Shown in pieces: positions 24,697 to 50,574 of a stretch of 64,000 nt of DNA. Numbering within the stretch: position 1 is the stretch's first letter; every line of letters begins with the position of its first letter. The position numbers and the translations under genes were made by a program. Source of the stretch: Fuscovulum ytuae (GTDB lineage Bacteria > Pseudomonadota > Alphaproteobacteria > Rhodobacterales > Rhodobacteraceae); NCBI RefSeq assembly GCF_029953595.1, contig NZ_CP124535.1:1768001-1832000 (forward strand), in the 5' to 3' direction. The notes beneath the pieces were generated by a model. That model was given only the letters and a program-made list of their open reading frames with translations, did no database searches and was not told where the DNA came from.

Positions 24697-25104
24697 TCAG
24701 GCCGGGATCACAGCCGTCGCCTCTATCTCCACCTTCGCACGATCCTCGACCAAGGCCACCACCTGCACCAAAGCCATGGCCGGGTAATGCCGCCCGATCA
24801 CCGCCTTATAGGCACGGCCAAGCTCTTTCAGGCGACCCAGATATTCCCGCTTGTCCGTGACATACCAGGTCAGCCGCACCAGATGCTCGGGCCGCGCGCC
24901 GGCACAGGCCAGCACCTCGACAATAGACCGCAGCGCCTGTTCGGCCTGCCCGACGAAATCATCCGTTTCAAAGACCTGATCGGCATTCCAGCCGATGATC
25001 CCCCCGGTGAATACCATCCGCCCAGTCGCCGCCACCCCGTTGGAATAGCCGATAGCGGGCTTCCAATGCGCGGGATGCAGGAATTCCAACCCCGTCTCGG
25101 TCAT
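24697..25104 (-). CDS. RidA-family protein (reactive enamine/imine deaminase-like)
   Basis: 135 residues, YjgF/YER057c/UK114 fold: GRMVFTGGIIGWNA, QAEQALRSIVEVLACAGARPEHLVRLTWYVTD, YPAMALVQVVALVEDRAKVEIEATAV. The Arg of canonical RidA (VARL, near residue 105) is Ala here (VVAL), which places it among the non-RidA subgroups. It is the last gene of the minus-strand operon containing the 2-aminobenzoyl-CoA monooxygenase/reductase and overlaps the thioesterase by 4 bp. Since the product of that monooxygenase is an enamine, a role in hydrolysing or protecting against the amine intermediate is a sensible inference. Confidence 0.88.
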   Translation of the reverse strand: MTETGLEFLHPAHWKPAIGYSNGVAATGRMVFTGGIIGWNADQVFETDDFVGQAEQALRSIVEVLACAGARPEHLVRLTWYVTDKREYLGRLKELGRAYKAVIGRHYPAMALVQVVALVEDRAKVEIEATAVIPA

Positions 25105-25514
25105 GCCTCCGCCTCCTCTTGATGCGCCACCAGCATCGCGCGCACCCGATCGGGCCAACGCGCGGGCCGCCCCTCGGGCGTGATCCAGACCAGAACCAAC
25201 CGCGCCACAAGGCGCATTGCACCGCCACAACGCGCCTCAAGCCGGATCGTCACGGATGACCCACCGACCCGCTCCACGACCAAGAGCCAATCCAGCACTT
25301 CGCCAAGACGCGAGGGCGCGCGGAAATCCGTCTCCACCCGCGCCGTTGGCACGCCGATCCCGTCATCCATCATCGCATGGTAGGAATAGCCCACCACTTC
25401 GCGGAAGAAATTCTCGCAGACCGAATTCGTCATCTCGAAATAGCGGGGATAAAAGACGATCCCCGCCGGGTCGCAATGGTTGAACTCGATGCGGATGCTG
25501 CGGGCATAGCTCAT
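25101..25514 (-). CDS. Hotdog-fold acyl-CoA thioesterase (4-hydroxybenzoyl-CoA thioesterase-like)
   Basis: 137 residues. The family hallmark [20 protein letters not shown] (about 9-28) carries the catalytic Asp in HCDPAGIVF, as in 4-hydroxybenzoyl-CoA thioesterase and YbgC. It overlaps both neighbours by 4 bp (acyl-CoA dehydrogenase upstream, RidA-like downstream). In an aromatic acyl-CoA pathway such an enzyme usually releases CoA from dead-end thioesters; the exact substrate is unknown. Confidence 0.9.
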
Positions 25515-26647
25515 CCCAGCACGCTCCGCGCGATGACCACGCGCTGCACATCCGACGCGCCTTCATAGATGCGCAAGGCCCGGATCTCGCGGTACAGGCT
25601 TTCCACCACCGATCCGTGGCGCACCCCATCCCCGCCATGCAATTGAACAGCCATATCAATCACCTCCTGCGCGGCCTCGGTGGCGTAAAGCTTGGCCATC
25701 GCCGCCTCGCGCGTGACCCGCGCCGCGCCATTGTCCTTTGTCCAGGCCGCGCGATAGACCAGCAGCGCCGCCGCGTCGATCTTCACCGCCATATCGGCCA
25801 GATGGCCCTGCACCATCTGCAGCCCCGCCAGCGGCTCCCCCTGAATCCGCCGCGCCTTCACCCGCGCCAGCGCCTCATCCAGCGCCCGCCGCGCAAAGCC
25901 CAGCGCCGCCGCCCCCACGGTAGAGCGGAACACATCCAAGACGGACATGGCGATCTTGAACCCCTCGCCCGGTGCGCCGATCAGCGCCTCTTCCGGCAAA
26001 ACCATCCCCCGCATCCGCAAAGTGGCCAAAGGATGGGGCGCGATCACTTCCAACCGCTCCACCGTCTCTAGCCCAGCCGCATCAGCGGGCATCAGAAAGG
26101 CCGAAAGCCCCTTGGCCCCCGGCGCCTCACCCGTCCGGGCAAAAAGCACATGGATATCCGCGATCCCACCATTTGAAATCCAGGTCTTCTCCCCTTCGAT
26201 CAGCCAACCGCCCTGCACCCGGGTCGCCGTGGTGGCCGTCGCCGCCACATCCGACCCCGATCCCGGCTCGGTCAGGGCAAAAGCCGCAATCGCCGCCCCC
26301 GTCCGCGTCTTCTCCAGCCATGCCTTTTGCGCGGGCGTGCCAAACAGGCTCACCGCCCCCATCCCCAGCCCCTGCATGGCAAAGGCGAAATCGGCCAAAC
26401 CATCATGCCGCGCCAATGTCTCGCGGATCAGACACAGCGTGCGGACATCCAGCCGCTCCCCTTCCCCGGCCCCGGAATGCCGCAGCCAGCCGCCCGCCCC
26501 CAGCATCGCCACCAGCGCGCGGCAGGCCGCATCCACATCACCATGATCCACCGGCAGATGCGCGGCGCACCACGTCTCAAGCGCCGCTGCCAGTTCGCGA
26601 TGCCGCGCCTCGAAAAAAGGCCAGTCCAGAAAGCTTCTATCGCTCAT
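25511..26647 (-). CDS. Acyl-CoA dehydrogenase
   Basis: 378 residues from the ATG at 26647. FAD/acyl-CoA motifs: [55 protein letters not shown], and the C-terminal [22 protein letters not shown] with the catalytic Glu in YEGAS. It sits between the GC-rich hairpin/repeat module and the thioesterase (4-bp overlap). In the proposed pathway it would oxidise the saturated ring-derived CoA ester; related dehydrogenases also work in branched-chain degradation, so substrate is inferred only from context. Confidence 0.93.
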
Positions 26648-26703
26648 GTCACCTTCATCTCGCTGCAATCCCCCGATCTGAACCCCATCTCGCGCCGTGC
26701 TGG

Positions 26704-26821: not shown

Positions 26822-26826
26822 CGACC

Positions 26827-27639
26827 TCAATCCCCTTGAAACACCGGGGTCTCCTTGGCGACGAAGGCACGGTAGGCCCGTTCGAAATCGCGGGTCTGCA
26901 TGCAGATCGCCTGCGCCTGCGCCTCGGCCTCGATGGCCTGATCCAGCCCCATGTTCCATTCCTGATTTAACTGGGTCTTCGTCATGCCATGGGCGAAAGT
27001 CGGCCCCGCTGCCAGACTGCGTGCAAGCTCCATCGCCGCCGCCTCCAGCGCCTCAGGGGCATGCAGCGCGTTCCAGAAACCCCATCTTTCGCCTTCCTCC
27101 GCCCGCATCACCCGGCCCGTATACAACAGTTCCGCCGCCCGCCCCTGCCCGATGATGCGCGGCAGCATCGCGCAAGCCCCCATGTCGCAACCCGCAAGGC
27201 CGACGCGGGTGAAAAGAAAGGCGCATTTCGCCCCATGGCTGGCCAGCCGCAGGTCGGACGCCATCGCCATGATCGCCCCCGCCCCCACACAGACGCCATC
27301 CACCGCCGCAATGACAGGCTTGCCGCAGCCGATCATCGCCTTGACCAGATCACCGGTCATCCGGGTGAAGGCCAGCAACTCCTTCATCTCCAGGCCCACC
27401 AGCGGGCCGATGATGTCATGTACATCGCCCCCGGAACAGAAATTCCCCCCGTTTGACGCGATCACCACCACATCCACATCCGTGGCATAGGGCAAGGCAC
27501 GAAAGGTGTCGCGCAACTCGGCATAGGACTCGAAGGTCAGGGGGTTCTTCCGTTCCGGTCGATTCAGCCGGATCACAGCGACCCGCTCCACCACCTCCCA
27601 CAGGAAATGTTCGGGCCGCAGCCCCGCCATCGCGCCCAT
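26827..27639 (-). CDS. Enoyl-CoA hydratase/isomerase family protein
   Basis: 270 residues from the ATG at 27639, which overlaps the MarR stop (TGATG); a GTG one codon earlier is possible. Crotonase fold: [21 protein letters not shown], then the oxyanion-hole segments [16 protein letters not shown] and [23 protein letters not shown], and [19 protein letters not shown] Gly-Cys-Asp replaces the usual catalytic Glu region (GLxPexGg), so the reaction may differ from simple hydration. It is grouped with the ring monooxygenase/reductase operon. Such crotonases often take part in ring hydrolysis or hydration of non-aromatic CoA esters. Confidence 0.9.
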
Positions 27640-28070
27640 CACGCCCCCATCCGTTTCAAAATATCCGTCAGCGCATCCAAATCGGCCTCAGAAAGCCCGC
27701 CGAAGATCCGCGCCACCTCTGCCACATGCCCTTCGGCCAGCCCTTCGAACTGCTGAAGCCCCGCCGCCGTCAGCGCGACGAACACCGTCCGTCGATCGTT
27801 CTCCGAAGGCGTCCGCCGCACCAGACCATCGGCTTCCAGCCGATCCACCACCGTGGTGGCATTCCCGTTCGAAACCAGCAGCATGCGGGACAACTCGCTC
27901 ATCGTCACGCCGTCGCGCCTGCGATAGAGCGCGGCCATCACGTCGAAACGCGGCAGGGTCGTGCCATGTTTCACCCGCAGGAATTCGCGCAACTCGCCCT
28001 CTGCCGCGCGGGTGACGCCCAGCAGGCGGATCCACATCTTCAACCGCCGCTTGGAAAGGGTATCGCTCAC
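27639..28070 (-). CDS. MarR-family transcriptional regulator (first)
   Basis: 143 residues from a GTG at 28070 that overlaps the SDR stop (GTGA). Winged helix-turn-helix: [63 protein letters not shown], with the wing DRR motif typical of MarR repressors. It is embedded in the operon encoding the 2-aminobenzoyl-CoA monooxygenase/reductase, so it is probably an aryl-CoA-responsive repressor of that operon. The 18-bp palindrome at 31158-31175 is the best candidate operator. Confidence 0.93.
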
Positions 28071-28810
28071 ACCTCGCCCCCCGAAATCACGATCCCCTGC
28101 CCGTTCACGCCAGCCGCGCCATCCGAACACAGCCACAGCGCCGCCGAGGTCACCTCATCGGGCCGATAAAGCCGCCCTTGCGGGGACATTCCCTCCAGCG
28201 CCGCGCGCGCCTCTGCCGTCGTCCGGCCTGTCTTTTCCGAAATCACCCGGATCGAGGTTTCCGTCATCTCGGTCTCCAGAAAGCCGGGGCAGATCGCATT
28301 GGCCGTCACCGGCCCCTTCGCCACCTCAAGCGCGACCGACCGCACCAGCCCCATCACCCCATGTTTCGCCGCCGCATAGGGCGCGACCTTGGCATAGCCC
28401 TTCACCCCGGCGGTCGAGGCCACGGCAATCAACCGACCCCAGCCGTCGAACTGCCGCAGCCCTTCGCGAAAGGTCAGGAACACCCCCGTCAGGTTCACCG
28501 CGATCATCGCATTCCATTGCGCGAGGCTTGTCTTGGCCAGCACGGCGCTATCCGCCGCGCCCGCATTGGCCACCACCACATCCACCCGCCCCGCCTGCGC
28601 GAAAAGCGCCTGAACCGATGCCTCATCCGTCACATCGCAGGGCAGCGCCCGGATCGCCCCATGCCGTGCCGCGACCGTCGCCAGCGCATCGGCCCGCCGC
28701 CCGCAGATCACCACCTCTGCCGCGCCCGCCAGCGCAAAGCCCAAGGCAAGGTCCGCCCCCGCGCCCGACCCGCCACCCGTGACCAGAACCCGCCGCCCCT
28801 CCACGCTCAT
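28067..28810 (-). CDS. Short-chain dehydrogenase/reductase
   Basis: 247 residues. Classical SDR: cofactor motif [30 protein letters not shown], catalytic Ser in [19 protein letters not shown] active site, and [12 protein letters not shown]. It overlaps the preceding monooxygenase/reductase stop by 4 bp and the MarR start by 4 bp. A 3-hydroxyacyl-CoA or ring-alcohol dehydrogenase role in the same catabolic route is likely; the basic cofactor-binding CGRRAD after strand 2 is compatible with NADP(H) or NAD(H). Confidence 0.93.
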
Positions 28811-31092
28811 GCCCGGATCACCTCTGCCGCCTTCTCGCGCAAACGCCGCATCTGGTCGCGCCCCGCCAGATAGGGTAGCGGCCATTCCGTCGCAGCATCG
28901 CCCATGGCAACAGCGGCGTGCAATGTCCAATAGGGATTGGCCAGATGCGGCCGCGCAAGGCAAACCAGATCGGCCCGCCCCGCCAAGAGGATGGAATTCA
29001 CATGGTCCGGTTCGGTGATGTTCCCCACCGCCATCGTGGCCAGCCCCGCCTCATTGCGGATGCGGTCCGAAAACGGCGTCTGGAACATCCGCCCATAAAC
29101 AGGCCTTGCATCAACCGAGGTCTGGCCCGCACTCACGTCGATGATATCCGCCCCCGCCTGCGCGAACAGGCCCGCGATCTTTACCGCCTCATCCGGTGTG
29201 ACGCCCTCATCCCCCACCCAATCCGTGGCCGAGATGCGGACCGACAGGGGCTTTTCCTCGCCCCAAGCCGCCCGCATCGCCCGCAGCACCTCCAAGGGCC
29301 AGCGCATGCGGTTCTCCAACGAACCACCATAGCCATCCGTCCGCCTGTTCGATTTCGGGCTAATGAAAGACGACAGCAGATAGCCATGCGCTGCATGCAG
29401 TTCGATCATGTCAAACCCCGCGCGCTTTGCCATCTGGGTTGCCGCCACGAATTCCGCCGTCACCGCCTCCATATCGCCCCGCGTCATCTCACGTGGGATG
29501 GCGTTGCGGGGCGACCACGGCAGGGACGATGGCCCGATGATCTCCCAATTCCCGGCAGGCAGGGGGGCATCCCCGTCTTCCCAACCGACCTGAGTCGATG
29601 CCTTCCGCCCTGCATGGCCGATCTGGCAGCAGATCTTCGCCTCCGTCTCGGCATGCACAAAATCGACGATCCGCTTCCACGCCGCCTCATGTTCCGGCGC
29701 ATAGAGCCCCGGGCAACCCGGCGTGATGCGGCCTTGCGCCGAGGTGCAGGTCATCTCTGTGTAAACCAGCCCCGCGCCGCCCTTGGCGCGCTCACCGTAA
29801 TGGACAAGATGCCAATCGGTCGGGCAGCCCTCCACCGCCTTGTATTGCGCCATGGGCGACACCACGACCCGGTTCTTCAGCGCCATATCCCGCAAGCGAT
29901 AGGGGGCGAACATCGGCGCGCGGCCTTCCTCACCGCCTGCCTGACGCTGAAACCAATCTTCCGCCCGCCGCAGCCACGCCGGATCACGCAGCCGCAGGTT
30001 TTCATGGCTGATCCGCTGGCTGCGCGTCAGCAGCGAATAAGCGAATTGTTCGGGCGGCAGGTCCAGATACCTCTCCACCTGCTCAAACCATTCCAGCGAA
30101 TTGCGCGCCGCCGATTGCAGGCGCAGCACCTCCACCCGCCGCTCCTCCTGATAACGGGCAAAGGCCGCCTCTAGCGTCGGTTCCGAATGCAGATATTCGG
30201 CCAGCGCGATGGCGCTATCAAAGGCCAGCCGCGTCCCCGACCCGATGGAAAAATGCCCCGTCGCCGCCGCATCCCCCATCAAGACCACGTTTTCATGATA
30301 CCACGTCCCGCAGATCACGCGGGGGAAGTTCATCCACACCGCCGACCCACGCAGATGCGCGGCATTCGACATCAGGTCATGCCCGCCAAGATGCCGTTCA
30401 AAGATCCGGCGGCAGGTTTCCACCGTCTCTTCCTTGGACATATCGGCAAAGCCCCACCTGTCCCATGTCTCTTGCGCGCATTCCACGATGAAGGTCGCGG
30501 TCTGGTCGTCGAATTGATAGGCATGCGCCCAGACCCAGCCATGCGCCGTCTTCTCAAAGATGAAGGTGAAGGCGTCGTCAAATTTCTGATGCGTGCCCAG
30601 CCAAACGAACTTGCACAGGCGCATGTCGATATCGGGCTGGAACACCGCCTCATATTCCCGCCGCACCGCCGAATTGATCCCGTCCGAGGCGACGACCAGA
30701 TCGTAATCCCGCCGATAGTCTTCGGCCGTCTTGAACTCCGTTTCAAAGCGCAGATCGACGCCCAATTCCCGCGCCCGCGCCTGCAACAGGATCAACATCT
30801 GCTTCCTGCCGATCCCCGCAAAGCCATGCCCGCCCGACACGGTGCGCACGCCGTCATGCACCACGGCGATATCGTCCCAATAGGCGAAATGATCGCGGAT
30901 CGCCTGGGTCGAGACAGGATCGTTCCGCGCCATCCGCCCCAGCGCGTCATCCGACAGAACCACGCCCCATCCGAAGGTGTCATTGGCGCGGTTCCGCTCC
31001 AGCACCGTCACCTCATGCCCCGGATCGCGCAGCTTCATCGAGATGGCGAAGTAAAGCCCGGCAGGGCCACCCCCAAGGCAGAGAATCTTCAT
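28807..31092 (-). CDS. 2-aminobenzoyl-CoA monooxygenase/reductase-like two-domain flavoprotein
   Basis: 761 residues from the ATG at 31092. The N-terminal half (1-390) is an aromatic-ring FAD monooxygenase ([54 protein letters not shown]). The C-terminal half (about 395-761) is an old-yellow-enzyme reductase ([46 protein letters not shown]). This fusion is known from the aerobic anthranilate pathway of Azoarcus evansii, where it hydroxylates and reduces 2-aminobenzoyl-CoA to a non-aromatic amino-oxo-cyclohexene ester. Salicylyl-CoA 5-hydroxylase fusions are the closest alternative. It is first in a seven-gene minus-strand operon and divergent from three beta-oxidation genes. Confidence 0.88.
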
Positions 31093-31216: not shown

Positions 31217-31984
31217 ATGGACCTGTTGATCGAACGCCAAAATGGCTGGGCGCAGCTGACCTTGAACCGTCCCGCGCAGAAGAACGCGCTGAACACCGCG
31301 CTTCTGGGGGCGGTGGCGGCTGCCTTGTCGGAGATGGCCGCCGATCCTGCGATCCGCGCGGTGATGGTGACAGGGGCCGGGGGCCATTTCGCCGCCGGGG
31401 CAGATATTGGCGAAATCGAACACAAGACCGCCGCCGAAGGGTCCATTGATCCAAGAAAAACGCATTGGGCCGCGATCCGTGCCTTTCCCAAACCGCTCAT
31501 CGCGGCGGTCGAGGGGTTTGCTCTGGGTGGCGGCTTTGAACTGGCGCTGATGGCCGATCTGATGGTGCTAGGCCCGACCGCCCGCCTTGGCTTGCCGGAA
31601 ACCAACCTTGGCCTCATCCCCGGCGCGGGCGGGGGGCAGCGCCTGATGGCGCTGGCGGGTCGGGCGCGGGCCATGCGCATGGTGCTGATGGGCGAGGTGA
31701 TCGATGCCCGCACCGCCCATGACTGGGGCATCGCATCTTACCTGATTACTGACGAAGCGCCCGCTGCGTGCCCACAGTTTGCGGCACAAATCGCGGCACA
31801 AATCTCTGAACGTGCGCCGCTGGCCCTGATGGCCGCCAAAGCCGCAGTTCTGGCGGGCGAAGCGCGCAGCCTTGCCTTGGCCGAGGAGCGCCAAGCCTTT
31901 GAAAGGCTTCTCGATTCAGCGGATAAATCCATCGGCATCGCAGCCTTCCGCGCCCGAACCAAGGCGGAGTTTACGGGAAAATGA
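31217..31984 (+). CDS. Enoyl-CoA hydratase (PaaF-like)
   Basis: 255 residues of the crotonase family: LTLNRPAQKNALNTALLGAV, oxyanion segments TGAGGHFAAGADIGEI and AAVEGFALGGGFELALMADLMV, and LPETNLGLIPGAGGGQRL with the two catalytic Glu regions intact, unlike the other hydratase of this locus. First gene of a three-gene plus-strand operon (hydratase, dehydrogenase, thiolase) with 4-bp overlaps, the standard terminal part of a beta-oxidation route such as phenylacetate or ring-opened benzoyl-CoA products. Confidence 0.94.
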   Translation: MDLLIERQNGWAQLTLNRPAQKNALNTALLGAVAAALSEMAADPAIRAVMVTGAGGHFAAGADIGEIEHKTAAEGSIDPRKTHWAAIRAFPKPLIAAVEGFALGGGFELALMADLMVLGPTARLGLPETNLGLIPGAGGGQRLMALAGRARAMRMVLMGEVIDARTAHDWGIASYLITDEAPAACPQFAAQIAAQISERAPLALMAAKAAVLAGEARSLALAEERQAFERLLDSADKSIGIAAFRARTKAEFTGK

Positions 31985-33093
31985 CCATCGGGATCATAGG
32001 CTTGGGTGCCATGGGCCTTGGCATCGCGCAAGTCTTTGCGCAGGCTGGATTTTCCGTCCGCGCGACCGATGCCAACGCGGACACCCGCGCCTCTGCCCCC
32101 ACCCGCCTTGCCGATGCTCTGGCCGCCCGCGTGGCCAAGGGTGCGCTGACCGAAGCCGATAAAACCGCGATCCTTCAAAGGCTTGTGATCCTCAATCGGA
32201 TCGAAGACATCCCCCCCGCCGATCTGGTGATCGAGGCGGTTCTGGAGCGGGCCGAGGTGAAGCATCAGGTCTTTTCCCTTCTCGAACAGGGACTTGCCCC
32301 TGATGCCGTGCTGGCCAGCAATACCTCGTCCCTGTCGATCACAGCCCTGGCCAAAGGGCTGCGCCACCCCGAGCGTCTGGTCGGTTTACACTTCTTCAAC
32401 CCGGCCCCGGTAATGCGTCTGGTGGAACTGATCCCCCATGCCGGAACCTCCACCGATGCCCTGAACACCGCCCGCAGCTTGACCGAACGCGCAGGAAAAA
32501 CCGTTATCCAATGCGCCGACCGCCCGGGTTTCATCGTCAACCGCTGCGCCCGCCCCTTTTACGGAGAGGCGTTGGCAATGCTGGAAGAGGGGCGGACCGC
32601 AGGCGAGGTCGACGCCGCGATGATGGCGGCGGGCTATCGCCTTGGCCCCTTCGCGCTGATTGATCTGATCGGGGCCGACATCAACCTTGCCGCCACCGAA
32701 GGCCTTGCCGCCGCGATGGGAAACCATCCGCGTTATCACGTCTTTGATGCGCTGAAGGCCCAAGTGGCAAGCGGCTACATTGGGCGTAAGTCATTGAAAG
32801 GTTTCATATTTCCAGAAGACGCGCCACCCCCGCCCAATGATGCCGCAGCCATCGCCCTGCGCATCGAGGCCACCCTCGTGAACGAGGCGGCATGGCTGCT
32901 GGCCGAAGGCGGCACCACTGCCGAAGGGATCGACAGCGCAATGAAACTCGGCCTCAACTTCCCGCGCGGTCCGTTTGAGGCGATGGCCCGCCATGGCCAA
33001 ATGAACATCCTGCAAACCCTTGCAAAGCTGGAAGAAAACGCCCCCCCTCATCTGCGGACCCGCTACATACCCGCCCCCGGACTCATGCCATGA
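31981..33093 (+). CDS. 3-hydroxyacyl-CoA dehydrogenase (PaaH-like)
   Basis: 370 residues. NAD-binding motif IGIIGLGAMGLGIAQVFAQAG; LVIEAVLERAEVKHQVF; LASNTSSLSITALA; the catalytic His-containing GLHFFNPAPVMRLVELI; GFIVNRCARPFYGEAL; and the C-terminal domain repeated (about 180-260 and 285-360), as expected for the single-function enzyme. It is coupled to the hydratase before it and the thiolase after it by ATGA overlaps. Confidence 0.95.
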   Translation: MTIGIIGLGAMGLGIAQVFAQAGFSVRATDANADTRASAPTRLADALAARVAKGALTEADKTAILQRLVILNRIEDIPPADLVIEAVLERAEVKHQVFSLLEQGLAPDAVLASNTSSLSITALAKGLRHPERLVGLHFFNPAPVMRLVELIPHAGTSTDALNTARSLTERAGKTVIQCADRPGFIVNRCARPFYGEALAMLEEGRTAGEVDAAMMAAGYRLGPFALIDLIGADINLAATEGLAAAMGNHPRYHVFDALKAQVASGYIGRKSLKGFIFPEDAPPPPNDAAAIALRIEATLVNEAAWLLAEGGTTAEGIDSAMKLGLNFPRGPFEAMARHGQMNILQTLAKLEENAPPHLRTRYIPAPGLMP

Positions 33094-34294: not shown

Positions 34295-34849
34295 TCATCC
34301 CCGACGATGCGTCGCCGCAACGCGCGAGATTTCCTCGTAAATCCCCGACAAAAGGTTCAACGTCCGCGTCGCTTCGGCCAGCCGGTCCGAAAACCCCGGC
34401 ACCGTCTGCACCGCCTGTATCAGTAGTCTCCGCCGCACCGCGCCATAGTCATCCGTCACACGGCGGCCCTCTTCTGTCACCTCATAGGTCACACCCGACC
34501 GTCCTGATCCTTTGCGCAATATCAGCCCGGCACTGATCAATTTGCGCAAGGAATATTGGATGTTCGGCACATCGTCCCGGTTGGTCAGCCGCGCAAGGTC
34601 CTTGATGCTTTTCGGTCTCTCGTTCATCCGGATGATGTGGAGAAGCGCATTTTCCGGCCCCGTCGCCGCAAGGTCGCAGACCGAGGCAAGGCATTCCGAT
34701 TGCCAGCGCCCGAATCCCTCAAAGGTCCGCATGAGGGCGAATTCCAACTCCGTCGTGTCGACCTCGACCGCGCTTTCCGCAAGGTGCCAGTGCCAATCAA
34801 GCCCCGGCGTCACGGCATCGTTTTGAGTTTGAACATTTTTCCGCGTCAT
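34295..34849 (-). CDS. MarR-like winged-helix regulator (second)
   Basis: 184 residues. A longer N-terminus than usual is followed by a helical segment (VDTTELEFALMRTFEGFGRWQSECL), then the winged helix (LLHIIRMNERPKSIKDLARLTNRDDVPNIQYSLRKLISAGLILRKGSGRSGVTYEVTEEGRRV). It is divergent from the luciferase-like monooxygenase with 116 bp between them, which contain a promoter-like and inverted-repeat sequence. It is therefore the likely local regulator of the monooxygenase/flavin-reductase pair. Confidence 0.88.
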   Translation of the reverse strand: MTRKNVQTQNDAVTPGLDWHWHLAESAVEVDTTELEFALMRTFEGFGRWQSECLASVCDLAATGPENALLHIIRMNERPKSIKDLARLTNRDDVPNIQYSLRKLISAGLILRKGSGRSGVTYEVTEEGRRVTDDYGAVRRRLLIQAVQTVPGFSDRLAEATRTLNLLSGIYEEISRVAATHRRG

Positions 34850-36057: not shown

Positions 36058-36067
36058 GGGGGCAGGG

Positions 36068-42391: not shown

Positions 42392-42396
42392 GCGCC

Positions 42397-43191: not shown

Positions 43192-43258
43192 CTTCTCCCT
43201 ATTGGCCGGTCCAACCCGGCAAAACCCGCGCCGGTTGTTCTCCCGGCCGTCCGGAATC

Positions 43259-43291
43259 ATGCTAGACAGATTTAAATGCATTTGCAAATAT
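43259..43291. promoter_or_regulatory. Overlapping divergent promoters with nested palindromes
   Basis: Two -35/-10 pairs face each other. Plus strand: TAGACA (43263-43268), 17 bp, AAATAT (43286-43291). Minus strand: TTGCAA (43282-43287), 17 bp, TAGCAT (43264-43259). The shared centre contains two overlapping 10-bp palindromes, AAATGCATTT (43274-43283) and ATTTGCAAAT (43280-43289), a good site for a MarR-type repressor to block both. The gap serves the cyclase operon (minus) and the second FAD enzyme plus importer (plus). Confidence 0.65.
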
Positions 43292-43317
43292 CCCTGCGTC
43301 AATCTGGGCGGGGGGTC

Positions 43318-44886
43318 ATGGGCACAGAGTTCGACGCAATCCTGATCGGGGCGGGCCACAACACGCTGGCCGCCGCCTTGCACCTGTCGGCCAAAGGCTG
43401 GCGGGTGGGCGTGTTCGAACAGGCCTCCGTCGCGGGCGGTGCGGTCAAGAGCGGGGAATATACGCTGCCGGGGTTCCGCCATGACTGGGCAGCGATGAAC
43501 CTGTCTCTCTTTGCGGGAAGTGCGTTTTTCAAGGCATATGGGGCAGAACTTGGCCGTCACGGATGCGATTTCATGCCCGTGAACCGCCCCTTCGCCTCAT
43601 CCTTCCCGGATGGCACATGGGCGGGTGTTTCGACCGACATGGCCGAAACACTGGCCGCCTTCCGCGCCCTCTCGCGCGCCGATGCGGAGAAGTGGCAAGC
43701 GCTTGTCGCGCGATTCGGGGAAGAGGCGCCGCATCTTTTCGGCCTTCTCGGATCGCCGATGAAATTGCGTGCGCTTGCATATTTCGCCTTCAAGACATTG
43801 CGCGCCAAAGGGGCCAGCGGCACCTTGGATTTCGGGCGTTTCCTGCTGTCTTCACCACGCGCTTGGCTAGAGGAAACCTTTGAACATCCCCATATCCGCG
43901 CCATGCTGGCAGCCTGGGGGATGCATCTCGACTTCGCTCCCGATGTCGCGGGGGGCGCGATGTTTCCCTATCTTGAAGGCATGGCAGGGCAGGCTTTCGG
44001 CATGGCGCTGGGCAAAGGGGGCGCGGATGTGATCATCCGGGCGCTGACCTCTGCCATCGCGGCGCGTGGCGGGGTGGTGGAAACCGGGGCACCTGTCGCC
44101 CGCATCCTGCGGGATGGCATCCGTGCGACCGGGGTAGAACTTGCCGATGGCCGCCGCATCACGGCCGGCCGCGCCGTGATTGCCGGGGTCGCGCCAAAGG
44201 CACTTGCGCGGCTGACGGGGGGTACGACGCCCGCCTTTGATGCCGCGATGGACAAATTCCGCCACGCCCCCGGGACAATGATGATCCACCTTGCGATGGA
44301 CGCCCTGCCAGATTGGCGCGCGGCGTCCGCATTGCAAGGCTTTGCCTATGTCCACCTTGCCCCCAGCCTTGATCAGATGGCGCGCACCTATCAGCAGGCG
44401 CAAGCGGGGCTGCTGCCGGATGAACCGATCCTCGTTGTGGGCCAACCTACGGTTTTTGATCCCGCACGCGCGCCGGACGGCAAGCATATCCTTTGGGTTC
44501 AGGTCCGCATGGCCCCCGGCACGATTACGGGCGATGCCAAGGGTGAGATTTCGGCAACCGACTGGCCCAGCGCCGCCGCGCCTTTCGCCGATCGTGCGCT
44601 GGCGATCCTTGAGGCGCATGCCCCCGGTACGCGGACCAAGATCATCGGCCAGCGCATCGTGACGCCGCTGGAGCTTGAGGCCGACAACCCTAACCTCATC
44701 GGCGGCGATCAGGTCTGTGGCAGTCACCACCTGTCACAGCATTTCCTTTTCCGTCCCGCGCGCGGCCATGCCGATGGGTCCACGCCCGTGCAGGGCCTGC
44801 ACCTGACCGGGGCCGCCGTCTGGCCCGGCGCGGGCACCGGGGCGGGATCTGGGTATTTACTGGCCCAAAACCTTGCCGGACAGTGA
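43318..44886 (+). CDS. Phytoene-dehydrogenase-like FAD oxidoreductase (second paralogue)
   Basis: 522 residues from the ATG at 43318 (GGGGGG upstream). Same architecture as the protein encoded at 40826-42391: AILIGAGHNTLAAALHLSAKG, FEQASVAGGAVKSGEYTLPGF, then KGGADVIIRALTSAIAARGG, and a C-terminal HLTGAAVWPGAGTGAGSGYLLA. It is first in the operon with the ABC importer (37 bp before the binding-protein gene). Both paralogues probably catalyse successive oxidations of the imported compound. Confidence 0.88.
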   Translation: MGTEFDAILIGAGHNTLAAALHLSAKGWRVGVFEQASVAGGAVKSGEYTLPGFRHDWAAMNLSLFAGSAFFKAYGAELGRHGCDFMPVNRPFASSFPDGTWAGVSTDMAETLAAFRALSRADAEKWQALVARFGEEAPHLFGLLGSPMKLRALAYFAFKTLRAKGASGTLDFGRFLLSSPRAWLEETFEHPHIRAMLAAWGMHLDFAPDVAGGAMFPYLEGMAGQAFGMALGKGGADVIIRALTSAIAARGGVVETGAPVARILRDGIRATGVELADGRRITAGRAVIAGVAPKALARLTGGTTPAFDAAMDKFRHAPGTMMIHLAMDALPDWRAASALQGFAYVHLAPSLDQMARTYQQAQAGLLPDEPILVVGQPTVFDPARAPDGKHILWVQVRMAPGTITGDAKGEISATDWPSAAAPFADRALAILEAHAPGTRTKIIGQRIVTPLELEADNPNLIGGDQVCGSHHLSQHFLFRPARGHADGSTPVQGLHLTGAAVWPGAGTGAGSGYLLAQNLAGQ

Positions 44887-44923
44887 CCATAAGCAAACAA
44901 AACAACCAACAGGGAAAACGACC

Positions 44924-46447
44924 ATGAACCTTAACCGACGGAGCCTTCTGAAGCTCTCAGCCGCCACGATGGCCGCAGGCACGATCGGCCTGCCCACTTT
45001 CGCGCAACAGATCGACGAACTGGTCATCGCCTATAACGTCAATCTGCCCTCTTGGGACCCGACGGTCGGGCCCAGCGCGGTGAACCCGACGATTCAGGGC
45101 ATCTATCAGTCGGTCTTTGACCAATACATCCTGCAACAGCCTGACCTGTCGCCCGCCCCCGGCCTGCTGACGGAATGGGGTTGGAACGAGGATCGGACGC
45201 AGGTCTGGATGACGGTGCGCGAGGGCGTCACATGGCATGACGGATCGCCCTTCACGGCCGAAGACGTGGCATGGAACCTTGCCCGCGTGGCCAACCCGGA
45301 AACCGGCAGCCCGATCCAGTTCGTCTGGGGCACGCTGACCAACCACCGCGTCGACGGCAACAAGGTCATCGCCGATGTGGCGCAGTTCGACCCCACGATT
45401 TTCAAGTGGATGTATTTCCTGACCGGCTATGTCCTGCCCAAGGCCTATTACGAAAAGGTGGGCGCCGAAGGGTTCGAGGCCGCGCCCATCGGCACCGGCC
45501 CCTATATGGTCGACAAGTTCGAAAGGAACGCCTTCGTCCGCCTGAAGGCCAATGCGAATTACTGGGGCGGGAAGCCCGATTTCGAAACGGTCACGATCAA
45601 GTTCGTCCCCGATGCCGCGGCCCGCGTGGCCGAGGTGGAAAGTGGCAACAGCCATGTCACCCTTGAAATGCCCTATGAGGAATATGACCGCCTGAAGGGC
45701 GGCCCATTGGCGGGCGTGGCTGCGCCCATCTCGGATATCGGGATGATCTTCCTGAATGATATCGAGGTGATGACCGACCCGAATGTCCGCATGGCTGCGG
45801 CCCATGCCATCGACAAACAGGCGATCATCGACCGTCTGCTGTCGGGCTATGGCGTCAAGATCGACACGCTGCAAACCCCGGAATACGACGCCTTCGACGC
45901 CTCGGTCAGCGTGGCCTATGACGAGGCGAAGGCCGTAGAACTGCTGGCAGCCTCTGGCTATGGCCCCGACAATCCGGTGAAATTCAAGATCCAGACGACG
46001 CGCGGCTTCAAACCCAAGGATTACGAGATGATCCAGGCCATTGTCGGCCTGTGGCGCAGGGTCGGGATCGAGGCCGAGATCGAGGTCTACGAAATCGCCA
46101 AACACTACGAACTCCGCGCCGCCGACCAACTGGCCCCCGCCGCCTTCTATAATTGGGGCAATTCGGTGGGTGATCCCACCACCTCGACCGGCTTTGCGAT
46201 GTTCGGTCCCTCGCCCCATTCCGTCTGGGATGGCGAGGATCTGATCGGCATGATCGGCCCGCTCTGGGGTGAGGCGGATGAGGCCAAGCGGATCGAAGGC
46301 TGGAAGGCCGTGGATCGCTATATCGCCGAGAACGCGCTGGTGATCCCACTTTTGCAATATGTCCAGCCGATCCTGCACGCGCCCGGCGTTGCGGTGACGC
46401 CGCATGCCTCGGGCGCGCTTTTGCCGCATCTGATGAAACGGGCCTGA
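44924..46447 (+). CDS. ABC transporter substrate-binding protein, peptide/opine family (Tat-exported)
   Basis: 507 residues from the ATG at 44924 (AGGGAA upstream). N-terminal twin-arginine signal NRRSLLKLSAATMAAGTIGL with cleavage likely after PTFA. SBP family 5 features: ITWHDGSPFTAEDVAWNLARV-type block (here VTWHDGSPFTAEDV), GTGPYMVDKFERNAFVRLKANANYWGG, and VRMAAAHAIDKQAIIDRLLSGYG. It is the first of five importer genes. The family name says peptide, but many members bind other organic solutes, so a heteroaromatic or opine-like ligand is possible. Confidence 0.95.
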   Translation: MNLNRRSLLKLSAATMAAGTIGLPTFAQQIDELVIAYNVNLPSWDPTVGPSAVNPTIQGIYQSVFDQYILQQPDLSPAPGLLTEWGWNEDRTQVWMTVREGVTWHDGSPFTAEDVAWNLARVANPETGSPIQFVWGTLTNHRVDGNKVIADVAQFDPTIFKWMYFLTGYVLPKAYYEKVGAEGFEAAPIGTGPYMVDKFERNAFVRLKANANYWGGKPDFETVTIKFVPDAAARVAEVESGNSHVTLEMPYEEYDRLKGGPLAGVAAPISDIGMIFLNDIEVMTDPNVRMAAAHAIDKQAIIDRLLSGYGVKIDTLQTPEYDAFDASVSVAYDEAKAVELLAASGYGPDNPVKFKIQTTRGFKPKDYEMIQAIVGLWRRVGIEAEIEVYEIAKHYELRAADQLAPAAFYNWGNSVGDPTTSTGFAMFGPSPHSVWDGEDLIGMIGPLWGEADEAKRIEGWKAVDRYIAENALVIPLLQYVQPILHAPGVAVTPHASGALLPHLMKRA

Positions 46448-46457
46448 TCCGCAAGGG

Positions 46458-46555: not shown

Positions 46556-46595
46556 ACAGCCGATTGCGCAAGAGGCTCGCGCGCAGCGGTCAATA

Positions 46596-47615
46596 ATGAC
46601 GGGCAGGGCAGTGATCCGAATACTGGCAACGCGATTGGCGACGACGCTTGTCACCCTTGCAGGGGTGGCGGTGATCGTCTTTTTCGTGATCCGGGTCGTG
46701 CCCGGCAATCCCATCGCGATGATGCTGCCCCCCGGCGCGACGGAAGAGGATATCGCGCGCCTCTCCGCGCTTTACGGTTTGGACAAGCCGTTGGTGACGC
46801 AGTTCGGCATCTGGGTCGCGGGGGTCATGCAGGGGGATTTCGGCACCTCGATCACCACGCGGCAACCGGTGCTTGATCTGGTGCTGGGGCGGCTGCCCGC
46901 GACCTTGGAACTTGCGATCATGGCGCTGGTCATGGCGGTGATCCTTGGAGGCACCGCCGCCTTGATTGGCACGCGGTATCGCGGCGGGCGGCGCGAGGGG
47001 GCGATCGACGTGGCCAATGGCGTGGCGCTTTCGGTGCCGGATTTCCTATGGGGTCTGGTGCTGATCCTTCTCTTTGGCGTGTTCTGGCCGGTCTTCCATA
47101 TCTCGGGCCGGGTGACACCTTCGTTGGACCTGCCCTTCACCACGGAATTCTACCTGTTCGAAAGCCTGATCCGCCTGCGTTTCGACCTTTGGGCCGATAT
47201 CGTGGCGCATATGTTCATGCCGGCCTTAGCGCTGGCCATCCCCTTGGCGGCAATCATCGGGCAGCTTTTGAAGCAAAGCCTGAAAGAGACGATGAACCTT
47301 GACTACGTCACCCTTGCCCGGACCAAGGGCTATGGCGAGACGCGGGTCATCCTGCGAGAGGCGCTGCGCAATGCCGCCCTGCCCACGCTGACGCTGGTGG
47401 GGGTGCAATTCACCTTCCTCATCGGCGGCACCGTCATCATCGAACGGCTGTTTTCCTATGAAGGCCTTGGCAATATGGCCATCGATGCCGTGATCAACCG
47501 CGACCTGCCGCTGATCCAAGGGATCGTGCTGTTGTTCGCCCTGATCTTCACGGTCGTGAACCTGATTGTCGATCTGCTTTATGCCGTCCTGAACCCGAGG
47601 CTGCGCCATGCTTGA
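46596..47615 (+). CDS. ABC transporter permease (DppB-type)
   Basis: 339 residues, inner-membrane permease with six predicted helices: first helix LATTLVTLAGVAVIVFFVI, then RVVPGNPIAMMLPPGATEED, DKPLVTQFGIWVAGVMQGDFGTSI, and the EAA-loop region LKQSLKETMNLDYVTLARTKG, which contacts the ATPase. It overlaps the next permease gene by 8 bp. It starts 148 bp after the binding protein, across the hairpin/repeat module. Confidence 0.96.
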   Translation: MTGRAVIRILATRLATTLVTLAGVAVIVFFVIRVVPGNPIAMMLPPGATEEDIARLSALYGLDKPLVTQFGIWVAGVMQGDFGTSITTRQPVLDLVLGRLPATLELAIMALVMAVILGGTAALIGTRYRGGRREGAIDVANGVALSVPDFLWGLVLILLFGVFWPVFHISGRVTPSLDLPFTTEFYLFESLIRLRFDLWADIVAHMFMPALALAIPLAAIIGQLLKQSLKETMNLDYVTLARTKGYGETRVILREALRNAALPTLTLVGVQFTFLIGGTVIIERLFSYEGLGNMAIDAVINRDLPLIQGIVLLFALIFTVVNLIVDLLYAVLNPRLRHA

Positions 47616-48459
47616 TGGGCGGTCCCTGATCCGGCGTCGCACGGGGCTGCGGCTTTGGCTTTCGGGCGGATGGCTGGCGTTTCTTTGCCTCGCCGCCCTC
47701 TTGGCACCATGGATCGCGCCAAAGGACCCGCTGGCGCAGGATCTGTTCCTTGGCCGTCTGCCGCCCTTCTGGATGGCGGGGGCGGAACCGGGTTATTGGC
47801 TGGGAACCGATAGCCTTGGCCGGGACGTGCTGTCGCGCATCATTCATGGCGCGCGGGTCGCGTTGGCCGTGGCGCTGACCGCAGGCGTGATCACCTGCCT
47901 GATCGGCGCGACGCTGGGCCTGCTGGCGGGCTTCCTGCGTGGCTGGGTGGATATGGTCATCTCGCGCCTGATCGACATATGGATGGCCTTTCCGCCTGTC
48001 CTTTTCTCTATCCTCCTGATCGCCGTCCTTGGCCCCGGGCTGGTGTCGATCATCATCGCCATCGTCGTGATCGACTGGACACGCTTTGCCCGCGTCGTCC
48101 GGGCCGAGGCCATGGCACAGGGCGCGATGGATTATGTCGCCTCTGCCCGCGTGGCCGGGCGCGGGCGCATCGGGATCATGCTGCGCGAGATTTTGCCCAA
48201 TGTCCTGCCCACCATCGGGGTTCTTTTGACGCTGGAAATGGGCATCGCGGTGATCGTTGAGGCAATCCTAAGTTTCGTGAACCTGTCGATCTCGACCGAT
48301 GATCCGACTTGGGGAGGGATGATCTCGGAAGGACGCACCTCTATCCATCAGGCGTGGTGGGTGCTGGTCTTTCCGCTGATCACGCTCTTCCTCACCGTTC
48401 TGTCCTTTTCCCAATTGGGTGAAGGCCTGAAGGACCGTTTCGATCCGGTGCTGAGATGA
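47608..48459 (+). CDS. ABC transporter permease (DppC-type)
   Basis: 283 residues. N-terminal helix then AEPGYWLGTDSLGRDVLSRIIHGARVALAVAL, a DppC hallmark, five to six hydrophobic segments, and the EAA loop VVRAEAMAQGAMDYVASARVAGRG. It pairs with the DppB-type permease to form the channel. The start overlaps the previous gene by 8 bp; the stop overlaps the first ATPase by 4 bp. Confidence 0.96.
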   Translation: MLDGRSLIRRRTGLRLWLSGGWLAFLCLAALLAPWIAPKDPLAQDLFLGRLPPFWMAGAEPGYWLGTDSLGRDVLSRIIHGARVALAVALTAGVITCLIGATLGLLAGFLRGWVDMVISRLIDIWMAFPPVLFSILLIAVLGPGLVSIIIAIVVIDWTRFARVVRAEAMAQGAMDYVASARVAGRGRIGIMLREILPNVLPTIGVLLTLEMGIAVIVEAILSFVNLSISTDDPTWGGMISEGRTSIHQAWWVLVFPLITLFLTVLSFSQLGEGLKDRFDPVLR

Positions 48460-49334
48460 GCTTTCTGTCCATCCGCAACCTTTCCGTTCGCCTGAAGGGT
48501 GGCCCGCCCCTTCTGCGCCGCGTGTCGTTGGATGTGGGGGCGGGAGAGGTGCGGGGGTTGGTGGGGGAATCCGGCGCGGGCAAGTCGATGATCGGCAAAG
48601 CCGTGCTGGGCATCCTGCCCCCTTCGGTCGAGATCACGGAGGGGCAGGTGCTGCTGGACGGAACCGATCTTCTGTCCCTCCCCCCCAAGGACCGCCGCCG
48701 CCGCATCGGGGCCAGTTGCGCGCTGATCCCGCAGGACCCGCTGACCGCCCTGAACCCGTCCCATCGCATCGGGCCGCAGATCACCGACCGTCTTGTCGAT
48801 ATCCTCGGCTGGACACGCGCAAATGCCGAGGCCCGCGCCCGCGACCTGCTGGCCGAGGTGCAGATCCCCGATCCCGACCGCGTGCTGCGCGCCTATCCGC
48901 ATGAACTGTCGGGCGGGATGCGCCAGCGCATCCTGATTGCTTCTGCCTTTGCCGCCGAACCCAAGCTGATCGTCGCGGATGAACCCACCACCGCGCTGGA
49001 TGTGACCGTCCAGAAGCAAATCCTGAAGCTGATTGCTGGGATGCAGGCGCGACATGGCACCGCGCTTTTGTTTGTCACCCATGACCTCGGCGTAGTGTCC
49101 AAGGTCTGCCAGCGTCTTTCGGTCCTTTACGCCGGAATGGTGGTCGAAGATGCGGCGGTGGCCGATTTCTTCGCCGCCCCGCGCCACGCCTATTCCAAGG
49201 CCCTACTGGCCGCGACGCCGAAATACACCGATCCCGCCGCAGGCCTGCACCCCGTGCCCGATGCGGTGATTGAGGCGGTCCGTGCCGAAGTCGCGGCCTT
49301 CGATGCCCTTTCCGCAAAAGGAGGCGGGGCATGA
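48456..49334 (+). CDS. ABC transporter ATPase (DppD-type)
   Basis: 292 residues. Walker A VGESGAGKSMIGKAVLG, signature HELSGGMRQRILIASA, Walker B PKLIVADEPTTALDVTVQ and switch His in LLFVTHDLGVV. The C-terminal oligopeptide-transporter extension is present but short. It overlaps the neighbours by 4 bp on both sides. Confidence 0.96.
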   Translation: MSFLSIRNLSVRLKGGPPLLRRVSLDVGAGEVRGLVGESGAGKSMIGKAVLGILPPSVEITEGQVLLDGTDLLSLPPKDRRRRIGASCALIPQDPLTALNPSHRIGPQITDRLVDILGWTRANAEARARDLLAEVQIPDPDRVLRAYPHELSGGMRQRILIASAFAAEPKLIVADEPTTALDVTVQKQILKLIAGMQARHGTALLFVTHDLGVVSKVCQRLSVLYAGMVVEDAAVADFFAAPRHAYSKALLAATPKYTDPAAGLHPVPDAVIEAVRAEVAAFDALSAKGGGA

Positions 49335-50131
49335 CCGATCTTTACAGCGTGGAAAACCTGCGCCTGTCGCTGGCCGACATGACCACCAAGCCGCTGTTCG
49401 GCCCTGCGCCAAGGATCGAAATCCTCAAAGGGCTAAGCTTCACCATCCCCAAGGGGGCCGTGGTGGGCATCGTGGGTGGGTCAGGTTCCGGCAAATCCAC
49501 CCTGGGCCGCGCACTTGTGCGGCTGCTGGAACCGTCGGGCGGCAGCATCCGCTTTGACGGGACCGACATCACCCACTTGCCCGAACCCGCCCTGCGCCCA
49601 CTGCGGCGACGCTTTCAGATGATCTTTCAGGACCCGATGTCGTCCCTCAACCCGCGCCACCGTGTTGGCACGATCATCGCGGAACCCCTGCGCCTGCACG
49701 GTTTGGACAGGATCCCCAAGCGCGTCGCCCGCGCCCTGGATCATGTTGGCCTGCCACAACCCTTCGCGGCCCGCTTTCCGCATGAACTGTCAGGCGGTCA
49801 GCGTCAGCGTGTGGGCATCGCCCGCGCCATCGCGCTGGAACCAGACTTCATCCTTGCCGATGAAATCGTGTCGGGGCTTGACGTGTCATCGCAGGCGCAG
49901 GTTCTGAACCTGCTGGAACGGTTGGTGGCCGATCTGGGCCTGACCTTGGCCTTCATCAGCCATGACCTGTCGGTCATCCGCCGCCTTTGCCAGCGCACCA
50001 TCGTCCTGCACCGGGGGGAGATCGTCGAGGATCGCCCCACCGCCGAACTTTTCGCCACCCCCAGTGCCGCCTACACGCGCGACCTGTTAGAGGCGATCCC
50101 CCTGCCGGACCCCGCTCAGCCCTGGGTCTGA
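49331..50131 (+). CDS. ABC transporter ATPase (DppF-type)
   Basis: 266 residues. Walker A IVGGSGSGKSTLGRALVRLL, FQDPMSSLNPRHRVG, signature HELSGGQRQRVGIARAI, Walker B DFILADEIVSGLDVSSQ and LAFISHDLSVIRR. The extended start with a PRIEILKGLSF segment is usual for DppF. The 3' end overlaps the 3' end of the convergent thioesterase gene by 16 bp, which is tight packing. Confidence 0.96.
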   Translation: MTDLYSVENLRLSLADMTTKPLFGPAPRIEILKGLSFTIPKGAVVGIVGGSGSGKSTLGRALVRLLEPSGGSIRFDGTDITHLPEPALRPLRRRFQMIFQDPMSSLNPRHRVGTIIAEPLRLHGLDRIPKRVARALDHVGLPQPFAARFPHELSGGQRQRVGIARAIALEPDFILADEIVSGLDVSSQAQVLNLLERLVADLGLTLAFISHDLSVIRRLCQRTIVLHRGEIVEDRPTAELFATPSAAYTRDLLEAIPLPDPAQPWV

Positions 50132-50574
50132 GGCGGGGCGACGGGCCGCCGCTCGGCCGCATCCGGCGTCATCAGGCTTTCCAACTTGGCCTTCACCTCT
50201 TCTGGCCAAGGCATCGACGTGTGGCTGTCCAGCCAGCTTGCCGCCAAGACCTGTTCCACCGACCAGCGATGTTCCTCGCCGCAATGGATGGTATGCTTCA
50301 GGCGGACCGAAGATTTCCCCACCTTCAGCACCGTCAGCCGGAAGGTCAGCTTATCGCCAAAGAAGGACGGCTTCGAGAAATCGCAAGAAAGATGCACTGT
50401 GGGCGTGCCCCAGCGTTCTTTCCAGATGATTTCATGCCAAGGCCAGCCGATATGGGCCCAGAATTCCTCCACCACCCCATTCAGGATGTTCAGGTAGGCC
50501 GGGTAATAGGCGGTGCCGGATATGTCGCAATCCCCAAAATGCAGCATCCGGTCGGTCGTGAAACAGACGGTCAT
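50116..50574 (-). CDS. Hotdog-fold acyl-CoA thioesterase (second)
   Basis: 152 residues from the ATG at 50574. The 4-hydroxybenzoyl-CoA thioesterase-like signature is FGDCDISGTAYYPAYLNILNGVVEEF, with the catalytic Asp in DCDISG. The middle segment (LTFRLTVLKVGKSSVRLKHTIHCGEEHR) is the long central beta strands of the hotdog fold. It is only distantly like the thioesterase at 25101. It ends inside the 3' end of the importer operon and reads toward it. It probably belongs to the same aromatic acyl-CoA locus. Confidence 0.88.
   Translation of the reverse strand: MTVCFTTDRMLHFGDCDISGTAYYPAYLNILNGVVEEFWAHIGWPWHEIIWKERWGTPTVHLSCDFSKPSFFGDKLTFRLTVLKVGKSSVRLKHTIHCGEEHRWSVEQVLAASWLDSHTSMPWPEEVKAKLESLMTPDAAERRPVAPPQTQG

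Follow-up and report, generated by a model that had tools for sequence, protein, structure and literature searches.

By which step does isatinate, the ring-opened product of isatin, reach the coenzyme A (CoA)-dependent degradation of 2-aminobenzoate? The question is raised by a locus of 25 genes in Fuscovulum ytuae (Rhodobacteraceae), located at 24697-50574 of the window, by which we mean the whole stretch of 64,000 nucleotides analysed here (contig NZ_CP124535.1, positions 1,768,001 to 1,832,000; genome of 4.19 Mb in 3 contigs). The locus encodes an isatin hydrolase-type enzyme, a 2-oxoacid oxidoreductase of the IorAB family and a flavoprotein of the 2-aminobenzoyl-CoA monooxygenase/reductase (ACMR) type, and no CoA ligase was found among the locus genes scanned. 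Both the hydrolysis of isatin and the ACMR route are established, and the IorAB family consists of thiamine diphosphate (TPP)-dependent 2-oxoacid:acceptor oxidoreductases that form acyl-CoA. With moderate confidence, we propose that the locus degrades an indole-type compound via isatin and that IorAB supplies 2-aminobenzoyl-CoA to the ACMR route.

In the proposed pathway, a Dpp-type ABC importer would bring in the indole-type substrate, and the CrtO-type flavoproteins, CrtO1 at least, would dehydrogenate an oxindole- or dioxindole-type intermediate to isatin. Isatin hydrolase is predicted to open the lactam to isatinate (2-aminophenylglyoxylate). IorAB would decarboxylate isatinate oxidatively with thiamine diphosphate and CoA, yielding 2-aminobenzoyl-CoA and CO2, and hereby bypass free anthranilate and an ATP-consuming ligase. 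ACMR would then hydroxylate and reduce the ring, and hydratase, dehydrogenases, RidA, thiolase and thioesterase would complete beta-oxidation. This order of metabolites is that of the original prediction, made from the letters of the window alone, which had left the step from isatinate to the CoA ester unsaid; IorAB is the likely catalyst.

Organisation of the locus and genome samples

The locus is a composite of two conserved units (Table 1), a core spanning 36631-50131 and an ACMR and beta-oxidation unit spanning 24697-34265. In the core, iorB, iorA, marR3, crtO1 and the isatin hydrolase gene lie in this order on one strand and are divergent from crtO2, the gene of a substrate-binding protein (SBP) and abcB, abcC, abcD and abcF of the Dpp-type ABC importer on the opposite strand. 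Open reading frame (ORF) listing and family scans of the window confirmed the predicted gene types and positions for all 25 genes, the importer being a five-gene Dpp/Nik-type ABC set.

A scan of named genomes with crtO1 gave at least 583 relatives. We kept 80 of them and left out 27 loci below 20 kb; counts of relatives refer to the remaining 53 loci of at least 20 kb. The kept relatives are mostly Rhodobacteraceae, including the closest named ones among the kept matches (e.g. Tabrizicola, Rhodobacter), plus Hoeflea, Mesorhizobium, Oricola and Pannonibacter. The order sample holds 390 genomes, 30 of them matched by crtO1; G393, whose sole match is 37% identical and crtO2-like, was set aside and counted among the 361 non-carriers, which leaves 29 carriers (G and L numbers are our handles for genomes and loci). 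Order samples were taken for crtO1 and for ACMR, and are treated as the same 390 genomes since their handles agree. The class sample comprises 289 genomes, 42 with and 247 without IorA. Papers cited by their PMC accession are represented by excerpts.

All 11 core genes occur in identical order and orientation in 49 of the 53 relatives, the exceptions being L161, L189, L215 and L227. Because of this fixed arrangement the grouping of the core genes is more than chance. At E 1e-80, crtO1 was also found on 19 plasmid records, 10 of them from Sulfitobacter.

Isatin hydrolase and IorAB

The protein encoded at 42397-43293 is, judged by strong similarity, an isatin hydrolase predicted to convert isatin to isatinate. 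Over 263 residues, it scores 494 bits (E 1e-147) with PDB 4j0n, the isatin hydrolase B of Labrenzia aggregata, as compared to 28 bits with kynurenine formamidase, which supports the predicted indole- or anthranilate-type catabolism with isatin hydrolysis. No notable difference from the Labrenzia enzyme was seen at the level of sequence; the window copy is here placed in a pathway. Its metal motif, HSGTHFDAPHH, fits the HxG[T/A]HxDxPxH described together with the activity of the isatin hydrolase family (PMC6117287).

IorB scores 677.4 bits with NF006179 (cut-off 348), a model that carries a subfamily name rather than a tested function, and 35.5 bits with the equivalog TIGR03334, below its cut-off of 205.8. 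Isatinate is a 2-oxoacid, so IorAB likely turns it into the CoA ester; from its family, it is a likely isatinate:acceptor oxidoreductase (CoA-acylating). All nine hydrolase carriers among the 289 genomes of the class sample also carry IorA. Moreover, the hydrolase (E 1e-40) was found on 40 of 50 plasmid records carrying IorA (E 1e-100), 19 of the 50 being Sulfitobacter records.

The neighbours of IorAB were compared in other bacteria. On plasmid 3 of Azospirillum thermophilum, a same-strand run encodes IorA, IorB, a reductase, Rieske alpha and beta subunits, an AMP-forming ligase, a short-chain dehydrogenase/reductase (SDR), ACMR, another SDR, enoyl-CoA hydratase, acyl-CoA dehydrogenase, thioesterase and RidA, and the gene of the isatin hydrolase-family cyclase lies about 15 kb from this run. 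Caballeronia sp. SBC1 has IorAB, thioesterase and ACMR, then the cyclase about 8 kb on; no AMP-forming ligase is among the genes listed in 40 kb, a list that is incomplete by design. In Tsukamurella tyrosinosolvens, a member of another phylum, IorAB, cyclase, ACMR, an AMP-forming ligase and one CrtO1-like protein (41%) stand together. A second CrtO in this species was considered and rejected, the other flavin adenine dinucleotide (FAD) oxidoreductase having no crtO1 or crtO2 match at E 1e-3. Locus L039 combines an iad-type set (ligase, thiolase, SDR, Rieske pair) with cyclase, IorAB and ACMR. Across these loci the front end varies and the pair of hydrolase and IorAB is kept, so that the simplest common substrate is what the hydrolase produces.

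A tree of IorA was calculated from 47 rows picked from the retrieved loci and labelled by hand, i.e. a part of all known IorA. One branch of 27 rows, with a Shimodaira-Hasegawa-like approximate likelihood ratio test (SH-aLRT) value of 100, contains all 20 rows labelled as hydrolase-linked. The iad locus of Paracoccus saliphilus has an IorA with 88% identity to the window IorA, with which it nests.

As a separate observation, on a plasmid of Rhodococcus erythropolis R138 (L276, 5315-7773) the gene right after that of an isatin hydrolase-family cyclase encodes a TPP-binding protein. Further on are genes of a thiolase, a ligase and an aldehyde dehydrogenase, the last on the same strand as the cyclase. 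The TPP-binding protein could possibly be a non-oxidative counterpart that converts isatinate to anthranilate.

Alternative roles of IorAB

Several points weigh against a role of IorAB in isatinate oxidation or against its tie to the ACMR route. To our knowledge, no activity of an IorAB on isatinate is known. In the class sample, a hydrolase at E 1e-50 is missing from 33 of the 42 genomes with IorA, so we rejected the idea that IorAB strictly marks isatin degradation. G279 and G281 have their hydrolase away from IorA, and their IorA lie outside the 27-row branch. Hydantoinase A/B takes the place of the hydrolase at five IorA loci, three of them inside the branch, and two hydantoinase loci outside it also carry tryptophan dioxygenase-like and kynureninase genes. 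From the hydantoinase loci and the genomes without hydrolase it follows that some IorAB may serve other 2-oxoacids, or another lactam-opening enzyme may feed them. Two carriers of the core, G154 and G001, have an ACMR of just 48% and 52% identity, respectively. Moreover, the upstream genes also occur on their own: Mesorhizobium loti NZP2037 carries crtO2, importer and crtO1 in one region of pML2037 (L258), a plasmid on which no hydrolase or IorAB was found at the thresholds used, and in Sulfitobacter indolifex crtO2/importer and crtO1 are apart from hydrolase/IorAB. Two further points, the formation of anthranilate in Variovorax and the presence of a CoA ligase in the genome, bear on the alternative that survives best.

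In this alternative, which we consider unlikely, other enzymes convert isatinate to free anthranilate, a distant CoA ligase activates it, and IorAB is used otherwise, e.g. for the oxidation of indolepyruvate. For iad loci, the end product is reported to be anthranilate (PMC9613470), and its formation in Variovorax requires no more than the nine genes of the region iadC-K2 (PMC12633357, a preprint; the excerpt does not mention iadA or iadB), so that IorAB is not needed there to consume isatinate. The same excerpt places a compound C7H7NO between the isatin hydrolase-type step and anthranilate. In our own reading this formula fits 2-aminobenzaldehyde, and anthranilate may thus be a by-product. 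Mutants of Pseudomonas sp. LY1 in iadA and iadB do not grow on auxin and still transform it (PMC8383072); gene naming in the excerpt of that paper differs, and its iadA/iadB are not equated here with IorAB.

Concerning the ligase, the absence claimed by the original prediction holds for the locus and fails for the genome, where a protein 88% identical to the ACMR-cluster ligase of G528 is encoded about 316 kb from ACMR. A lack of the ligase in the genome was thus rejected, and use of anthranilate is probably still possible; IorAB would form a parallel, ATP-free entry. Against the alternative, this ligase lies outside the ACMR cluster, and no isatinate decarboxylase was found among the locus genes scanned. 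Indolepyruvate as substrate is argued against by the score of IorA with the indolepyruvate equivalog TIGR03336 (281.8 bits), far under the cut-off of 650.9. Moreover, several orders from two phyla have IorAB close to ACMR and a cyclase, and IorAB co-occurs with ACMR.

Improbable, in our judgement, is a start from kynurenine or tryptophan, in which the substrate of IorAB would be 2-aminobenzoylpyruvate or another aryl-2-oxoacid and the cyclase would be a kynurenine formamidase. Tryptophan dioxygenase-like and kynureninase genes do occur at the IorA loci of G160 and G029, and a distant kynureninase-like gene is found near some core loci. However, the IorA of both genomes fall outside the branch that holds the copies labelled hydrolase-linked, the cyclase of the window scores far better with isatin hydrolase than with kynurenine formamidase, and the scan of the locus genes gave neither a tryptophan dioxygenase nor a kynureninase or an aminotransferase. 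At the two loci concerned, L041 (G160; 3678-7431, 13376-15480) and L048 (G029), the hydantoinase A/B, tryptophan dioxygenase-like and kynureninase genes are neighbours of IorAB and of ACMR-set genes, and perhaps provide a different way of opening a lactam that leads into this pathway.

Association of the core with ACMR

The predicted entry into the 2-aminobenzoyl-CoA pathway is supported by ACMR, which passes the NF006101 cut-off (Table 1) with a match covering residues 19-775. This model takes its name from salicylyl-CoA and does not tell 2-aminobenzoyl-CoA from 2-hydroxybenzoyl-CoA; RidA, which L039, L267 and L272 also have in their ACMR clusters, and the isatin context favour 2-aminobenzoyl-CoA as the probable substrate.

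We return to our proposal that IorAB feeds this unit. ACMR lies inside the 10-kb flanks of the core in 10 of 53 relatives, on either side of it, and in the retrieved core stretches of 5 of 30 genomes. Somewhere in the genome, it is present in 29/29 crtO1 carriers of the order sample as compared to 124/361 other genomes (Fisher p 3e-13, not corrected for kinship), with at least 63% identity in 28 of the 29 carriers, G154 being the remaining one. In the class sample, 32/42 genomes with IorA carry ACMR versus 21/247 without IorA (Fisher p 6e-20, likewise uncorrected for kinship). The original prediction spoke of a single locus, which is true of the window and not typical of the relatives. The search for co-occurrence that it suggested found the core kept and ACMR in every crtO1 carrier of the order sample, usually unlinked. 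Homologous loci that keep the two units apart and use them in different pathways had been named as contrary evidence. The former is what we see for position; use in unrelated pathways is not indicated because all 29 crtO1 genomes have ACMR. That core and ACMR cluster are neighbours by chance and serve different compounds would suit their separation in most relatives, but is very improbable given this co-occurrence, the recurrence of core-ACMR linkage on either side of the core and the IorAB-ACMR linkage in other orders and another phylum.

CrtO proteins and importer

CrtO1 and CrtO2 are 38% identical to each other. The AlphaFold model of CrtO1 has a predicted local distance difference test (pLDDT) value of 81, and its best PDB fold, 4rep, places it in the CrtI/amine-oxidase superfamily and indicates no substrate. 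On plasmid 2 of Azospirillum thermophilum (L257), a run of genes encodes an SDR, a styrene/indole monooxygenase, a flavin reductase, a transporter, a CrtO1 homologue (60%) and isatin hydrolase (51%); no crtO2 or IorAB was found in 37.5 kb, and further on only distant ABC genes (at most 34%). The iif pathway reaches 3-hydroxyindolin-2-one (PMC6221969), so CrtO1 would most simply oxidise this compound to isatin. By analogy, CrtO1 is probably a dioxindole-to-isatin dehydrogenase.

The gene crtO2 accompanies the importer in 51 of 53 relatives. Because of this pairing and of the Mesorhizobium loti plasmid without hydrolase or IorAB, CrtO2 and the importer probably prepare one imported compound together. 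The region on that plasmid also contains molybdenum-hydroxylase-like, Ldh, RidA and FAH genes.

Relation to known pathways

Like the iad auxin loci of Variovorax, Bradyrhizobium and Achromobacter, the window locus combines an isatin/isatinate route, an isatin hydrolase-family enzyme, MarR control and IorAB-type markers (PMC9613470). In the excerpt of that paper, iorB/iotA are exclusive markers of iad loci and their function is not stated. Unlike iad loci, the locus has no Rieske IadDE pair and no AMP-forming ligase among its scanned genes, and no IadD homologue was found in the genome at E 1e-60. It has CrtO1/CrtO2, the Dpp-type importer and the attached ACMR cluster instead, and its SBP is of the Dpp/Nik type whereas IadK2 of iad is a B-III SBP (PMC10374108). 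Some relatives resemble the iif/ind indole clusters of Acinetobacter and Cupriavidus (PMC6221969) in carrying an indole-monooxygenase-type gene, flavin reductase, SDR and AraC genes near the core. Unlike iif/ind, the window locus has CrtO1 and isatin hydrolase; no IifA-type gene was identified in the locus, the genome not having been searched for IifA.

A search of titles and abstract openings, in which subscription journals are thinly covered, gave no paper in which isatinate is the substrate of IorAB/IadAB or in which such a set of genes is described. This agrees with the original prediction of a non-standard cluster, though iad loci with iorAB-type genes have been described. We regard the locus as a variant of known auxin/indole catabolism and not as proven to be novel.

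The abm cluster of Azoarcus evansii comprises ACMR, beta-oxidation enzymes, RidA and thioesterase. These are shared by the window locus, as they are by the abm pathway in Cupriavidus (PMC6221969). Unlike abm, the window cluster is without a linked 2-aminobenzoate-CoA ligase, and its CoA ester is proposed to arise from isatinate via IorAB.

We also put forward a wider proposal, for and against which we see the chances evenly balanced. The IorAB of this clade, including IadAB of auxin degraders, would form 2-aminobenzoyl-CoA from isatinate and CrtO1 would be a dioxindole dehydrogenase; together with the hydrolase they would constitute an interchangeable hub that accepts auxin, indole and one more indole compound supplied by import, and that yields a CoA ester with no anthranilate step, isatin being a true intermediate and no dead end. 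If true, this would give a function to the iad marker genes IorAB/IadAB, which are unassigned in auxin-degrading bacteria as far as the cited excerpts go, and a route for isatinate into central metabolism without a ligase. It would also bear on a question from the excerpt of PMC6221969, namely whether indole degradation truly passes through isatin. Moreover, it suggests an exchangeable middle section of auxin/indole degradation common to Rhodobacteraceae, Rhizobiaceae, Azospirillum, Caballeronia and Tsukamurella. Measurements of the end products of auxin degradation would then have to include CoA esters in addition to anthranilate.

Accessory and neighbouring genes

Table 1. Genes of the locus and its edge, with coordinates in the window and the basis of each assignment
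Feature	Coordinates	Strand	Basis and remarks
Polysaccharide pyruvyl transferase	23334-24625		beside tRNA-Glu, edge of locus
RidA-family imine/enamine deaminase	24697..25230	-	PF01042 72.6 bits; true start probably near 25101
YbgC-type acyl-CoA thioesterase (4HBT-type)	25101..25514	-	TIGR00051 40.1 bits, under cut-off 68.7
Acyl-CoA dehydrogenase	25511..26668	-	NF042972 237.8 bits, under equivalog cut-off
Enoyl-CoA hydratase of ACMR unit	26827..27642	-	NF006107 480.4 bits, cut-off 330
marR1, MarR-family regulator of ACMR unit	27639..28136	-	family scan
SDR oxidoreductase of ACMR unit	28067..28963	-	family scan; true start probably near 28810
ACMR-type two-domain flavoprotein, 779 aa	28807..31146	-	NF006101 1280.2 bits, cut-off 1078
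Enoyl-CoA hydratase, PaaF-like	31217..31984	+	under equivalog cut-off
3-hydroxyacyl-CoA dehydrogenase	31981..33093	+	family scan
3-oxoadipyl-CoA-type thiolase	33090..34265	+	NF006551 555.6 bits, cut-off 605 not reached
marR2, winged-helix regulator	34295..34849	-	PF13463; adjoins luciferase-like monooxygenase
Luciferase-like flavin-dependent monooxygenase, SfnG/RutA type	34966..36057	+	PF00296 208 bits; PDB 8t0u, 5wan
Flavin reductase partner	35960..36559	+	PF01613; domain from residue 50, true start later
iorB, Ior-type 2-oxoacid oxidoreductase beta subunit with DUF6537	36631..38193	-	PF01558, PF20169
iorA, TPP-binding alpha subunit, C-terminal cysteine clusters	38190..40337	-	PF02775
marR3, MarR-family regulator of core	40341..40985	-	PDB 3cjn 188.8 bits, 7kym 73.7 bits
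crtO1, CrtI/CrtO-fold FAD oxidoreductase	40826..42421	-	NF045689 145 bits, under cut-off
Isatin hydrolase, IHB type	42397..43293	-	PF04199 cyclase; PDB 4j0n; true start near 43188
crtO2, second CrtO-type FAD oxidoreductase	43276..44886	+	NF045689 174 bits, under cut-off
SBP of Dpp/Nik-type ABC importer	44873..46447	+	family scan
ABC permease B	46596..47615	+	family scan
ABC permease C	47608..48459	+	family scan
ABC ATPase D	48456..49334	+	family scan
ABC ATPase F	49331..50131	+	family scan
4HBT thioesterase, accessory	50116..50574	-	PF13279 on longer ORF 50116-50928

The two-component flavin monooxygenase of the original prediction is of the luciferase-like (RutA/SfnG) type and looks like an accessory. 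It is present in 20 of 53 relatives, seven of which also have an indole-monooxygenase-type gene, and was rejected as a conserved entry enzyme. Indole-monooxygenase-type genes lie near the core in 13 of 53 relatives, as counted with a query trimmed to exclude the neighbouring SDR region. The encoded protein matches PDB 7z4x, which we take to be an Acinetobacter indole monooxygenase, with 669 bits and styrene monooxygenase 3ihm with 115 bits. Five other relatives of the 53 have an FMO-type monooxygenase near the core (e.g. L179, 15686-17176), and no locus has both types. The FMO type is accompanied by the same SDR (5/5) and usually the same AraC gene as the indole-monooxygenase type. No indole-monooxygenase-type homologue was found in the window genome (G000) at E 1e-60.

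Concerning the regulators, marR1 accompanies acmr in relatives, and marR2 has no PDB match below E 0.6. The core regulator gene marR3 is present in all 53 relatives; homology of its product begins at residue 65, which places the true start later. Both auxin-binding 7kfo (27.8 bits) and 3cdh (52.3 bits) are more distant from MarR3 than 3cjn and 7kym are, which gives no reason to assume an auxin ligand. In a minority of core loci, a VOC/glyoxalase-family protein with no clear role is encoded between marR3 and iorA (e.g. L225, 4516-5115), and a distant kynureninase-like pyridoxal phosphate enzyme is likewise found near the core in a minority (e.g. L177, 366-1553; 72 bits as compared to a cut-off of 246). 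The 4HBT thioesterase occurs in 15 of 53 relatives.

The locus is flanked by recJ, tRNA-Glu and the pyruvyl transferase gene on one side and by oxyR and katG on the other. A genomic island at tRNA-Glu was considered and is not supported: the adjoining gene of 398 aa encodes the polysaccharide pyruvyl transferase and no integrase. Further along the window, 62182-63735 encodes a protein of the trimethylamine methyltransferase (MTTB) family (738 bits).

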